The notes beneath the pieces were generated by a model. It saw only the letters and a list, made by a program, of their open reading frames with translations. It was not told the origin of the DNA and ran no database searches. From contig PCWG01000038.1 in the NCBI GenBank assembly GCA_002787235.1, positions 1 through 38,731 of the forward strand: a DNA stretch of 38,731 bases, given 5' to 3'. This DNA is from Nitrospinae bacterium CG11_big_fil_rev_8_21_14_0_20_45_15 (GTDB lineage Bacteria > Nitrospinota > Nitrospinia > Nitrospinales > VA-1). A program made the position numbers and the translations under genes. Shown piece by piece: positions 23,254-28,180 of the stretch; the first letter of the stretch is position 1, and each line of letters starts with the position of its first letter.

Positions 23254-24261
23254 ATGATTGAAAGTTCCGCTCCTGCAAGAATAGATTTTGCCGGAGGCAC
23301 GCTCGATATCTGGCCGCTGTACCTTTTTTTTGGATTGCCACCCACCCTCAACGCGGCAATCGATTGTTATGCGACCGTTCAACTGACGCCCGATCCGTCG
23401 AGCAAAGCGATCACACTGGAATCGCGTGATCTGGGCATACGCGAACAGTTTTCTTCCTGCAATGCCTTGCCCGAAGGCAAGCATCCGCTGTCCCTGCTTA
23501 TCAAAACAGTTCAATTTTACCAGCCTAAAGAAGGCGGAACCCTCGTGACTTCCTGTCAGGCCCCGCCCGGTTCGGGCATTGGTGGCTCCTCTGCGTTGAA
23601 CATCGCACTGCACGGTGCTTTGAATACCTGGACAGGACGAAAGATGACCCGCCAGACCCTGCTCAAGGTTGCTAAAAATATTGAAACGCAAGTGATCGAA
23701 GTGCCAACAGGCTGGCAGGATTATTTTCCTGCACTGTACGGAGGAGCGTTGGCGGTATTGCCCGGGCTGGAATCGGTGGGGTATAGCAGAATTCCGCTTG
23801 ACCTGAATGAAATGACGCGACGCTTTGTGCTTTGTTACACCGGCGCACCGCGCCGTTCGGCGATCAATAACTGGGAAGTGACAAAAGACGCGCTCGATGG
23901 CAAAAAGAGCGTGGTTCGCAAATTGACAGCACTCCAGAATATTGCGAAACGGATGGAACCCATTTTGCGGGCCGAAAAATGGGACGCCCTGGCTGAAATG
24001 CTCAAAGAGGAATGGGAGGCACGCAAGGCACTGGCCCCCAACATTGCCACATTAGAGATGAAAAATCTCATCAAACACGCCAAAAGCAAAGGCGCATGGG
24101 TTGCGAAAGTTTGCGGAGCAGGTGGCGGCGGTTGCGTCGCTTTCATGGTCCCACCAGATTTAAAGACCGCTGTGTCCGATGAACTGCAAGCAAGAGGAGG
24201 AACCGTTCTGCCCTTCCGTTTCGTCAAACGCGGATTGCAAATCAAACACGATCGCCGCTAG
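23254..24261 (+). CDS. GHMP-superfamily sugar/metabolite kinase
   Basis: A 335-residue ATP-dependent small-molecule kinase. Motif 1 APARIDFAGGTLDIW (6-20), motif 2 the phosphate loop PPGSGIGGSSALNIA (104-118) and motif 3 KVCGAGGGGCVAF near residues 288-300 are all intact. VIEVPTGWQDYFPALYGG (147-164) resembles the matching segment of heptose-7-phosphate kinase (HddA)-like and related sugar kinases, so a phosphorylated sugar substrate is likely, but it is not decided by the sequence. It starts 41 bases after mlaC. The bases just before the ATG (GCCTCG) can pair with CGAGGC right after the mlaC stop, a possible structure over the start. Confidence 0.88.
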   Translation: MIESSAPARIDFAGGTLDIWPLYLFFGLPPTLNAAIDCYATVQLTPDPSSKAITLESRDLGIREQFSSCNALPEGKHPLSLLIKTVQFYQPKEGGTLVTSCQAPPGSGIGGSSALNIALHGALNTWTGRKMTRQTLLKVAKNIETQVIEVPTGWQDYFPALYGGALAVLPGLESVGYSRIPLDLNEMTRRFVLCYTGAPRRSAINNWEVTKDALDGKKSVVRKLTALQNIAKRMEPILRAEKWDALAEMLKEEWEARKALAPNIATLEMKNLIKHAKSKGAWVAKVCGAGGGGCVAFMVPPDLKTAVSDELQARGGTVLPFRFVKRGLQIKHDRR

Positions 24262-24378
24262 CGTGACGCTGGACCTGATAGGCCGTCTTTGCGAAAAGGT
24301 CAACGTAGAATGAAATGAAATTTATGCCCTCTTCATGATAGGATTCAAGATATCAAAATCAAAGAACGAGGTATTTTC

Positions 24379-24588
24379 ATGCAACAGGAAATAATTTTTA
24401 TTGTCGAAGAATCCCCAGAAGGCGGTTTCGAGGCAAAGGCACTCGGTCATTCCATTTTTACAGAAGCGGACAGTCTTTCAAATCTAAAGGAAATGGTGAA
24501 GGATGCGGTCCATTGCCATTTTGATGATAACGAAAAACCCTCAATGATCCGTCTCCACTTTGTGAAAGATGAGGTTATCCCGGCGTGA
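24379..24588 (+). CDS. HicB-like antitoxin domain protein
   Basis: A 69-residue protein of the short HicB-like family that databases sometimes mislabel as 2-oxoisovalerate dehydrogenase subunit. The pattern IIFIVEESPEGGFEAKALGH, followed by IFTEADSLSNLKEMVKDAV and HCHFDD, is the small partially degraded RNase H fold of HicB proteins; no DNA-binding tail is present. A CGAGG precedes the ATG at good spacing. The last codons overlap the GTG start of the broken hicA relic as GTGA, the normal antitoxin-first arrangement of this subfamily. With the toxin dead it is probably an orphan. Confidence 0.85.
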   Translation: MQQEIIFIVEESPEGGFEAKALGHSIFTEADSLSNLKEMVKDAVHCHFDDNEKPSMIRLHFVKDEVIPA

Positions 24589-24850
24589 AACTCCCAAGAA
24601 ACATCGGGGGTGAAAAATTATGCCAATTGCTTGAAACGTATGGCTACAACTTGAAACGTATGGCTACAAAATGATTCGTTAGACAGGAAGTCATATTCGG
24701 CTGACATCCGCCATCAAAGGCGAAGAACACCATATTACAATCCCGCGCCATTCTCCCATAAAAATTGGAACGCTGAATCAAATCATCAGCACCATTGCAA
24801 CTTATCTTGGAATGGATAAAAAAGATTTGATTGAAAATCTTTTCAGTTGA
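24585..24850 (+). pseudogene. hicA toxin pseudogene (20-bp tandem duplication plus nonsense codon)
   Basis: From the GTG at 24585 the frame reads VKLPRNIGGEKLCQLLETYG, a normal HicA start, then meets a perfect 20-bp tandem duplication (24630-24649 and 24650-24669) that shifts the frame and stops at TGA. Removing one copy restores a HicA reading to the natural end, including TGSHIRL, EEHHITIPRHSPIKIGTLN and IISTIATYLGM, except for one TAG (24680-24682) where the family has Gln (CAG) before TGSHIRL. HicA toxins are double-stranded-RNA-binding-fold mRNA interferases whose catalytic His is the one in GSH. Two independent lesions make the gene inactive. Confidence 0.92.
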
Positions 24851-25158
24851 GAACCTGCTCAATCACGAATTCTTCCAATTAAATTCATCGCCTTCGCCAG
24901 CGTGACGCTGGACTCAACGTGAACGATTGAAACCAGCGTAGCCAAACCTTTGATATTGCGATTGCGCCCAATCATTTTCGAATACTTGTAACGGAGTCGC
25001 CCATGGCCCCTGCGGCGAGCAGTCGTAGCAATAATCAAACACCTGCGCGCCTTGCTCCAATCGCTTAATTCCGAGCCCAACTGAGGCCACTGTCAGGCGA
25101 ATACTATACTAGTACAAATCGGCATTGCTCAAGTTCGATGGGAAATACGCAGGCGTAC
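24851..25158. other. 308-bp stretch without a gene
   Basis: Holds the first full copy of the palindrome-bearing repeat (24897-24973) and otherwise sequence without coding character. The minus-strand frame at 24859-25080 runs through the repeat and is not judged to be a gene. Confidence 0.55.
24897..24973. repeat. Palindrome-headed interspersed repeat, copy A
   Basis: Begins with CCAGCGTGACGCTGG (7-bp arms around one base) and continues through ACTCAACGTGAACGATTGAA to ATTGCGCCCAATC. Copy B at 26121-26195 is the same apart from a short indel and several substitutions. A third occurrence of the palindrome core (AGCGTGACGCT, 24260-24270) overlaps the stop codon of the GHMP kinase gene without the flanking part. 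Confidence 0.85.
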
Positions 25159-25422
25159 TCAATATAACTTATACCCACACCTTCTGCATTTCCGTGGAGC
25201 CCAAGGGCTCCAAAAAAAATAGTTGTAAAAAACGGGTTTCCCACATTTTGGGCATCGAACCAGAAGTGTATAAATACCAACTGAAAAAAATAGTAAAAAT
25301 AATGGAATTAAAAAATACACCCCGATCTCAAGAACTAAATATCCGAAAAAAAAACCTAAAGGAATCCAAAGTATAGTTACAGCAAAACTAATATAAATTT
25401 TCTTTTTTATATCTAATGACAC
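25159..25422 (-). CDS. Small two-helix membrane protein with C-terminal zinc ribbon; candidate immunity protein
   Basis: I do not recognise the family. With the GTG start at 25422, which follows GAGGA by 8 bases, it has 87 residues; an upstream ATG at 25482 would overlap the RHS tail and has weaker support. Two hydrophobic helices (about residues 10-30 and 33-55 of the short form) are followed by CPKCGKPV and CRRCGYKL, four cysteines likely to bind zinc. It begins 41 bases after the stop of the RHS toxin tail on the same strand, the place where the immunity gene of a polymorphic toxin is normally found. Immunity function is inferred only from position and membrane character. Confidence 0.6.
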   Translation of the reverse strand: MSLDIKKKIYISFAVTILWIPLGFFFGYLVLEIGVYFLIPLFLLFFSVGIYTLLVRCPKCGKPVFYNYFFWSPWAPRKCRRCGYKLY

Positions 25423-25463
25423 AAATAAAATCCTCGTTTTGCAAGCGATTGTATAATTCGCAT

Positions 25464-26120
25464 TTAACAAAAAAACCAACAACTATCGTCACCCACACTA
25501 GTTTCAACCTCAATATCAGAGTCAATTTTTTCATCAATGTCATAACTCCAAAAAGATTTGAAACTGTCCCAAATTGATTCTTCTGGATTTGGAGGAACTT
25601 TAGGATCCGCAGTTTGATGCTCAATGATGTTTAATTCATCAGCGTTATTTTTTATGTTAATAATTTCAGTACGACTAAGAGTGGTAGACACTTGGATAGG
25701 AATAGGGCTAGGAAGACCGGGGCCTACCATAAAACCTCTAAAATCAGAATTATGAGGGTCCCATAAAAGAGTAATATTAACTACTCCGAAGATTACAAGG
25801 TTATCATTTTTAGTCATACCGGGAACACTTCCAAACGCTAAGCCTCCAAAAATATCTACGCCCACATTCAGGCCTGAGCCTGCACCTACTGAAGAAAATA
25901 TGCTACGGTTCCCCGTCTCAACATCTATAGCACCCCCAAAGCTACCTTCAACCCCGGTTCCGGTTACATTCGTTCCTCCTGTCCCTACAAGAATGTTAGC
26001 CTTAGGAAAAAGACCTGATGGGTCTCTTGCATTAATGGGGTTGTTATCGACGTAGGCGTAGAAGTTGATGCCGGCGCGGAAGCCTAGCGGGTCTTCGAGA
26101 ATCTGCCGATTTCAGGATCG
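25464..26120 (-). pseudogene. Orphan C-terminal end of an RHS-family polymorphic toxin
   Basis: The minus strand reads DPEIGRFS, then, after a one-base deletion, EDPLGFRAGINFYAYVDNNP and INARDPSGL, the hallmark end of the RHS repeat-associated core. After this the frame stays open for about 180 residues to a stop at 25464. The tail is Gly-rich at first (VGTGGTNVTGTGVEGSFGG, GAGSGLNVGVDIFGGLAFG), then more polar, and ends in SVGDDSCWFFC; no known nuclease or deaminase motif is seen. The rest of the RHS gene upstream is missing: the homology stops at the repeat at 26121. A GTG-started frame at 25865 exists but without a good ribosome-binding site. It is therefore a displaced or decayed toxin cassette. 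Confidence 0.8.
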
Positions 26121-26195
26121 CCAGCGTGACGCTGGACTCAAAGTGAACGATTGAGACCTGCGTAGCCAAATTAGGGCTTGCGATTGCGCCCAATC
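26121..26195. repeat. Palindrome-headed interspersed repeat, copy B
   Basis: Second copy of 24897-24973, starting with the same CCAGCGTGACGCTGG. It abuts the RHS remnant exactly at the codon for the Asp of DPEIGRF. A short length difference between copies changes the reading frame, so the repeat is not a conserved coding sequence. From 26196 to 26470 I see no gene. Confidence 0.85.
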
Positions 26196-26470
26196 TCCAT
26201 CGAATGCTGATAAAAGTTTAGCTCCTAGTCTCCCACGCTAGTGGGACGGTAACCATTTTACCTATTTTCGCAGTTGTTTTGTAGATTGAAGGCTGAATAT
26301 TTCATCTCGCATCGGGAAATATGAGGACTTTTGCGGGGATTCTTGTGTGTGCGTTGGCAAATGAACGGTCGCTATTTTTAGAGCTTAATCCTTTGAAAAA
26401 TTGGGAATAAGGTGTAACATGTGTGCATCTATGAATTTTTAGGCAGGTCTCAATCAAAGGAGGTTCTCCT

Positions 26471-28180
26471 GTGGCTTTAGGTGAAAAGTTGCGTTTGGGC
26501 GATGTTTTGGTCAAGGCGGGAGCGATCACGTCGGAACAGTTGGGCAAGGCTCTCAAGGCTCAGCAACAATACAATATTCCCCTGGGCAAGGTTTTGATCA
26601 AGTCAAAGCTTCTGACTGAGGAAGCCCTGGCGATGAGCTTGTCGGAACAACTTCATTACCCCTATATCGATTTGCAGGCGATCAATATCGATCAGGACGC
26701 GATTCATAAGGTGAATGAAAATATGGCGCGTCTGCATCAGTTGGTCCCCGTTTATATAAAGGATGGCAAGCTGGGAATTGCCATGGTCGACCCACTGAAT
26801 ATTTTTGCTGTGGATGAGGTGACCATCAAATCGGGGATGGATATAGAAGTGAACGTCGCTACTGAAACCGATGTCATGCATGCGATTCAGGAGTATTACG
26901 GAGTAGCGGCATCCATTCAGGCGGCGGTGCAGAGTCTGGGGGTCCTTGAAGAAAAACGCGAGGATGAAAAAGCCATTCTGGAAGAAGGGGCTCTTCCCAC
27001 TGCTGAACTGGTGGCAGATACGCCTGTAGCCAATCTGGTGAAGATGATTTTGACGCAAGCTGTCGATGATGGTGCCAGTGATATTCATATCGAGCCCGGT
27101 GACGGCGTGACCCAGATACGCTATCGTATCGACGGGGTTTTGTTTGAAGCCTCACGACCTCCTAAAAGTCTGGAGTCGGCACTGATTTCCCGTATCAAAG
27201 TCATGGCCAACATGGATATTGCCGAAACCCGCGCCCCGCAGGACGGTGGTTTTGGGGTGCAACTGGGCAAAAAGAAGATTGAGCTTCGTGTTTCCACCTG
27301 CCCGACTGTATTTGGCGAAAATATGGTGCTGAGAATTCTGGATAAATCCAATTTGCGGGTGGATCTGGAAAAATCCGGTCTCACGGGTGTGAATCACGAC
27401 AGAGTCGAAAAACTTCTAGTCAAACCTTACGGAGTTATTCTGGTAACCGGTCCTACCGGTAGCGGAAAGACCACCACTCTTTATGGTGCGCTTCAAAAGC
27501 TGAACACTCCCACAAAAAATATCAAGACCATTGAAGACCCTGTGGAATACCGCCTGCCCGGGATCAGGCAAACGCAAGTGAACCCCAAAGCCAATATCAC
27601 CTTTGTGACGGGTTTGCGGTCCTTGATGCGGCAAGATCCCGACATCATCATGGTGGGTGAAATTCGAGACAATGATACGGCTGAAATTGCGGTACAAGCC
27701 GCCTTGACGGGTCATCTTGTGCTCAGCACTCTGCATACCAACGATGCGCCGGGTGCAATCGCTCGTCTCACCGATCTGAAAATTGCGCCATTTTTGCTCG
27801 CGTCATCCATCATAGGCGTGATAGCCCAACGTTTGATAAGGACCATTTGCAAAGAGTGTGCGGTGCCCTACACCCCGACCGATGAAGAGTTGAAAATATT
27901 GTTTCCCAAGGGCGACCCGCAACCCGGACATTTGATGAAAGGGGAGGGGTGCAAGCAATGCAAAAGAAGCGGTTACAGCGGACGCATCGGGGTGTTTGAA
28001 GTTTTGGTGGTCAGCGATGATATACGCGAGCTCATTCTAAAGGGTGCGGCTCCCATGGAAATTCGTGATACAGCGATAGCGAATCATGGGATGATCACGC
28101 TTAGACAAGACGGTATCAACAAGGTGCTTGCAGGCATAACCACCGTGGAAGAGCTCAACCGGGTGACCTTTGCCGATTGA
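26471..28180 (+). CDS. Type IV pilus/type II secretion assembly ATPase (PilB/GspE family)
   Basis: A 569-residue hexameric ATPase that powers assembly of pilus or pseudopilus fibres at the inner membrane. The GTG start at 26471 follows a very strong AAAGGAGGT (26456-26464). The N-terminal MshEN-type region (1-145) begins with LGDVLVKAGAITSEQLGKAL, a motif that often binds c-di-GMP. The ATPase core has Walker A GPTGSGKT (327-334), the Asp box IKTIEDPVEY, Walker B DPDIIMVGEIRD (389-400) and the His box ALTGHLVLSTLHTNDAP. Two zinc pairs Cys460/Cys463 and Cys494/Cys497 are typical of PilB/GspE. It heads a cluster with a two-component system, PilC/GspF and a prepilin. PilB and GspE cannot be separated with confidence. 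Confidence 0.95.
   Translation: MALGEKLRLGDVLVKAGAITSEQLGKALKAQQQYNIPLGKVLIKSKLLTEEALAMSLSEQLHYPYIDLQAINIDQDAIHKVNENMARLHQLVPVYIKDGKLGIAMVDPLNIFAVDEVTIKSGMDIEVNVATETDVMHAIQEYYGVAASIQAAVQSLGVLEEKREDEKAILEEGALPTAELVADTPVANLVKMILTQAVDDGASDIHIEPGDGVTQIRYRIDGVLFEASRPPKSLESALISRIKVMANMDIAETRAPQDGGFGVQLGKKKIELRVSTCPTVFGENMVLRILDKSNLRVDLEKSGLTGVNHDRVEKLLVKPYGVILVTGPTGSGKTTTLYGALQKLNTPTKNIKTIEDPVEYRLPGIRQTQVNPKANITFVTGLRSLMRQDPDIIMVGEIRDNDTAEIAVQAALTGHLVLSTLHTNDAPGAIARLTDLKIAPFLLASSIIGVIAQRLIRTICKECAVPYTPTDEELKILFPKGDPQPGHLMKGEGCKQCKRSGYSGRIGVFEVLVVSDDIRELILKGAAPMEIRDTAIANHGMITLRQDGINKVLAGITTVEELNRVTFAD

Follow-up and report, generated by a model that had tools for sequence, protein, structure and literature searches.

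The window, a stretch of 38,731 nucleotides making up contig PCWG01000038.1 of Nitrospinae bacterium CG11_big_fil_rev_8_21_14_0_20_45_15, contains between 25,159 and 26,120 the end of an RHS core, a variable tail and a frame for a small membrane protein. RHS tips are swapped like cartridges. We were interested in whether this locus holds a displaced RHS toxin tip with its immunity gene, whether the tail and the small protein belong together, and where such a toxin would act.

The RHS tip, its partner gene and the insert that carries them

The features of the locus, in window coordinates, are as follows.

26102-25464, minus strand: tip open reading frame (RHS core end plus tail), from minus-strand translation, bounded by TGA at 26114 and TAA at 25464
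26010..26102, minus strand: RHS core end (EDPLGFRAGINFYAY...DPSGL), from TIGR03696
25464..26012, minus strand: RHS-CT tail of 182 aa, predicted toxin domain, from translation and the copy on contig C39; no family match
25159..25422, minus strand: 87-aa zinc-ribbon membrane protein, predicted immunity protein, with GTG start and GAGGA upstream
26118..26213, minus strand: decayed repeat and RHS-core debris upstream of the tip and out of frame with it, from the repeat and similarity to contig C18
24894..25056, minus strand: second copy of the RHS debris, downstream of the pair, from the 53-nt repeat (94%)
24379-24850, plus strand: HicB-like 69-aa frame (HicB by eye, no library match), then a broken hicA
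24279..26211, no strand: insert of about 1.9 kb, both edges aligned pairwise with sister species G002
23254-24261, plus strand: GHMP-kinase gene, flanking the insert
26471-28180, plus strand: pilB, flanking the insert on the other side

The minus-strand translation of the tip reads EDPLGFRAGINFYAYVDNNPINARDPSGL and continues with the tail up to the TAA at 25464. Its first 30 residues correspond to positions 48-76 of the 76 in the TIGR03696 profile, which matched the tip protein with E 1.4e-7 and 31.9 bits, under the cut-off of 32.5, in the NCBIfam search, and with 34.2 bits, over that cut-off, in the whole-genome search. The RHS core end that an earlier, sequence-only reading had recognised is thus present, and the tail, put there at roughly 180 residues, measured 182. 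The same reading had called the tail Gly-rich. This holds for residues 1 to about 120, which also carry little charge (21 Gly, 13 charged residues), and fails for the last 62, which are acidic (16 D/E, 1 Gly). No in-frame ATG, GTG or TTG was present from the stop at 26114 to a GTG at 25865, and starting there would already leave out one third of the tail at its beginning. The RHS tip is silent in its present form, having no start codon and being closed off upstream by a stop. Neither this nor the RHS debris around the pair had been noted in the sequence-only reading.

The partner starts with GTG at 25422, preceded by GAGGA and lying 41 bases past the tail stop; the small zinc-ribbon membrane protein proposed for this position was confirmed, with 87 residues and four cysteines (C57, C60, C79 and C82, in a CPxC...CxxC arrangement). 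Its N-terminal half is hydrophobic, the 19-residue Kyte-Doolittle windows exceeding 1.6 from residue 8 to 58, a stretch with room for two membrane segments. AlphaFold, run on the single sequence, gave one long hydrophobic helix (3-54) plus the ribbon, with pLDDT 82. A fold search with the partner returned weak matches only, many of them to zinc-binding proteins, and no immunity family was matched in Pfam or NCBIfam. Promoter and terminator scans stayed at chance level. At present the putative immunity gene alone is likely to be expressed, if it is transcribed.

The sister species G002 has the same GHMP kinase and pilB with about 63 bases at the place of the insert, as shown by pairwise alignment. 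Within the insert, RHS debris flanks the pair on both sides as a direct repeat of 53 bases, 94% identical. Window 26153-26029 is 81% like C18:1502-1630, window 24979-25022 is 93% like C18:1679-1722, which itself lies inside a TIGR03696 match, and window 25000-25056 is 93% like sequence on contig C33, near whose end this RHS debris recurs as a short, decayed fragment. The flanking core debris carries a frameshift and stops. With debris before and after the pair, the layout resembles that of displaced tips arrayed in tandem. The neighbouring hicA is broken by a 20-base tandem duplication at 24630-24669 plus an in-frame stop; its second half still matches PF07927 (E 6.6e-6). A 16-nt palindrome, CCAGCGTGACGCTGGA, occurs at window 24258, 24897 and 26121 and also on contigs C4, C21 and C35, with 8 copies at no more than one mismatch, and it is present too at the empty site in G002. 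Its position at the insert edges raised the idea of an attachment site, which was rejected: copies of this dispersed repeat also lie far from RHS sequence, so that it is not specific to RHS, although it may mark recombination.

The rest of the RHS gene, reported missing at the locus by the sequence-only reading, is indeed absent there, and PF05593 RHS repeats were found nowhere in the whole assembly (3.37 Mb, 97.5% complete), so there may be no recipient for the tip. Of RHS genes, core ends were all that turned up in the assembly, namely in the window and in an array with which contig C18 begins. However, since both C18 and C39 stop within or close to RHS-type sequence, a full RHS gene may be unassembled. 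In the C18 array itself (C18:1-2312; L010 1-2312, minus strand), displaced RHS tips and partner genes stand in tandem at the contig end; one partner frame encodes a DUF6980 protein (PF22400, E 6e-26) and runs into an RHS core fragment.

Relatives of the tail and of the partner

The tail gave no match beyond noise in Pfam, NCBIfam, PHROGs and PADLOC, in agreement with the earlier statement that it lacks a known toxin motif, and no catalytic motif or enzyme family was recognised in it with Pfam, NCBIfam and other family libraries. A search of PDB chains up to E 10 produced no match to Tse5-CT, just weak unrelated ones. Single-sequence AlphaFold gave no usable fold (pLDDT 31.6). No membrane helix was predicted in the tail (best 19-residue Kyte-Doolittle window 1.25), and glycine zippers (GxxxG) were not above chance (3 versus 1.4 expected, p 0.18); a slight, marginal beta-type alternation was seen (p 0.045). 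Direct searches of plasmids, viral contigs and genome contigs with the tail found no relative, and no full RHS protein carrying the same tail was found in the collections searched, so that this check, proposed by the sequence-only reading, speaks neither for the pairing nor against it. A match in G025 (E 0.03) was weak and taken as chance, as were four weak plasmid matches, of which the three loci inspected had no RHS tail.

Across 77 genomes of the same phylum, a relative of the tail was detected solely as a copy on contig C39 of the same genome. The partner search of these genomes found a partner relative at C39:336-488 (E 6.3e-5), which is about 30% like the window partner and likewise a membrane protein with a zinc ribbon. 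The frame just upstream, C39:136-261, has the translation FVGFTAGVGPPLPLGWGYSKTESYTEILPSKIRH, which matches tail residues 91-121 with 44% identity. The local score of this tail match in the scan was 55; the 34-aa piece scored 51, a value reached by 0/2000 and 0/1000 shuffles (z 7). The profile E-value of the match is circular and unusable because the profile includes the C39 piece. Tail and partner on C39 are strongly diverged, keep the order seen in the window and are again separated by a gap that is similarly short. This recurrence, seen in one further copy only, is the best evidence that the two belong together. Repeated sequence truncates the C39 tail on its upstream side, and most of the tail is lost. 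Two direct copies of TATACAATCTGTAGTCAAGAACGGACTTGACCCCTTTA lie just upstream of the truncated tail (C39:1-130; L020 1-130) and may be the termini of a small mobile element by which the C39 tip was cut.

Clear matches to the partner were present in 2/77 same-phylum genomes and in 1 of 72,556 plasmids, and none was found in phages and viral contigs; phylum profile matches at E 0.005-0.1 were not counted as relatives. A genome-contig scan with a two-row partner alignment, whose patterns covered little of the ribbon, found no relative. The relatives are few, therefore the partner is not a common protein, and the concern of the sequence-only reading that it might be common in unrelated contexts was not borne out by these counts. 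The relative in G018 is an orphan beside an aroDE-like gene and has an internal TAG. The one on a Cupriavidus plasmid (E 4e-4) is an unannotated frame behind an ISNCY transposase and is also an orphan. To judge from their setting, these partner relatives outside the pair look like immunity genes left behind, and orphan immunity genes are described as common in RHS biology in the available part of PMC10539506.

Gly-rich RHS tails also occur in G034, G037 and G018, where small membrane proteins also come next. A rule by which a Gly-rich tail goes with a small two-helix partner found no significant support among the phylum RHS tips (2/7 versus 5/32, Fisher p 0.37). Kinship of the window tail with the Gly-rich tails L081, L084, L079 and L092 was likewise not supported: local z values from shuffles were 1.4 to 4.4 and the probability from profile comparison was 0.4%, so common descent is not claimed. 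In G037, L081 and L087 are two near-identical copies of a Gly-rich-tail RHS tip with a two-helix partner. Behind each copy lies a transposase-like 546-aa frame, as if it had been copied with the tip.

Comparison with known orphan tips and membrane immunity proteins

Orphan RHS-CTs usually lack translation initiation signals and are activated by recombination with the main RHS gene (PMC3967940). With the orphan rhs-CT/rhsI modules of Enterobacteriaceae, exemplified by Salmonella LT2 STM0292, the locus shares the core end DPxGL, the variable tail, the small partner behind it, the missing start codon and displaced tandem copies in the genome (PMC3967940). In contrast to these modules, the locus has no adjacent main RHS gene, and none was found in the assembly; its core homology amounts to tens of bases, whereas LT2 has 522 bp at 95% (PMC3967940). 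Moreover, the window pair stands alone between unrelated genes, and its tail and partner are unrelated by sequence to those of the enterobacterial modules.

The RHS pore-forming toxin Tse5 of Pseudomonas aeruginosa, with its immunity protein Tsi5, is the second comparison. In the available text of PMC9637101 and PMC10684867, its tail, as in the window, has no enzyme motif, and two-membrane-helix Tsi5 provides immunity against the membrane depolarisation that Tse5 causes (PMC9637101). Tsi5, as described in that part of PMC9637101, and the window partner are both small and hydrophobic, with space for two membrane segments. On the other hand, Tse5-CT is predicted to be helical in the same available text, whereas the window tail has no predicted membrane helix and no sequence match in the PDB, and the zinc ribbon of the partner does not appear in the description of Tsi5 given there.

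The immunity proteins of CDI ionophores resemble the partner in small size and hydrophobicity: these CdiI proteins are of 72-100 aa, two-helix and very hydrophobic, and they are polymorphic, with about 30% identity within a group (PMC11630599). The toxins differ in being delivered by CdiA, not RHS, and in being helical, with five helices, and the word zinc is absent from the text of PMC11630599, whereas the window partner has a zinc ribbon. Imm17 and Imm-CdiI are also two-helix proteins, Imm17 being defined by a WxW motif and an Arg between its two membrane helices (PMC3482391); together with Tsi5 and the CdiI proteins they are the known cases of such immunity proteins, set against toxins that depolarise membranes, with which the partner was compared. 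The window partner has neither the WxW/Arg motif nor a match to a Pfam or NCBIfam immunity family.

Readings of the pair and their meaning

What these results support is an orphan RHS tip and, next to it, a gene that is probably its cognate partner, both new by sequence comparison. That the locus is a displaced RHS toxin-tip cassette with its immunity gene is, in our estimate, probable. On this reading, homologous recombination would join the tail to a full RHS gene and so provide a start together with a cage and a route of export, and the tail would be toxic only once fused in this way. The zinc-ribbon protein would be made from its own start, sit in the inner membrane and block the toxin there; the target of the toxin would probably lie at or across the inner membrane. 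The sequence-only reading had described such orphan tips as donor cassettes for toxin switching. The orphan tip with its partner stands; a working donor does not find the same backing, as no RHS-repeat gene was found and the flanking core is decayed.

The same decay raises the alternative, to which we give a little less than an even chance, that the pair is a leftover of what was once a toxin/immunity unit, now without recombination, expression or role. Such a leftover would fit the assembly without an RHS-repeat gene, the frameshift and stops in the flanking core debris, the broken hicA, the loss of most of the tail on C39 and the internal TAG of the G018 relative. However, 182 and 87 codons are still open despite the decayed RHS flanks, the partner has lost none of its four cysteines and still has a good ribosome-binding site, and a full RHS gene may lie in the unassembled sequence beyond the ends of C18 and C39. 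The toxin/immunity reading and this one are not exclusive, since a true cassette can stay dormant for good.

As to where the toxin would act, the inference of a membrane target comes from the putative immunity protein, which is of the membrane type like those of Tse5 (Tsi5) and the CDI ionophores and like Imm17. The sequence-only reading had seen a Gly-rich hydrophobic tail and a membrane-bound partner as fitting a membrane-acting toxin. Only the partner speaks for it now; the tail, with no predicted membrane helix (1.25), zippers at p 0.18 and pLDDT 31.6, does not. We give action at the membrane about an even chance. The absence of an enzyme family or conserved catalytic motif in the tail, together with a Gly-richness and low charge that are unusual in enzymes, argues against a toxin that works elsewhere, for example in the envelope or as an unrecognised enzyme, with the membrane partner merely anchoring immunity. 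We regard this alternative as unlikely, even with a tail that has no membrane helix, a slight beta-type alternation (p 0.045) and no fold. Finally, it is very improbable that the 87-aa protein has nothing to do with the tail beside it and that the tail has no partner: tail-less relatives do occur beside aroDE and behind the ISNCY transposase, but C39 repeats the tail remnant and partner with order and spacing kept, and orphan immunity genes are, as noted, described as common in RHS biology.

Returning to the displaced cassette, RHS tips of this type are already well known as a kind, whereas the libraries used contain no described family to which the tail or its zinc-ribbon partner could be matched, which makes the member new; by these searches the pair appears to be undescribed and very rare. 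More tentatively, it might represent a new toxin/immunity family, in which an RHS-delivered, Gly-rich, beta-type membrane toxin would be neutralised by a zinc-ribbon membrane antidote. Two divergent versions of this family would then exist within a single genome, and other lineages would have orphan immunity genes. No immunity family of zinc-ribbon membrane proteins is described in the libraries and literature searched. Displaced RHS tips persist here in a genome in which no full RHS gene could be found, and every new family of tip and antidote enlarges the known range of poisons that bacteria use against each other.
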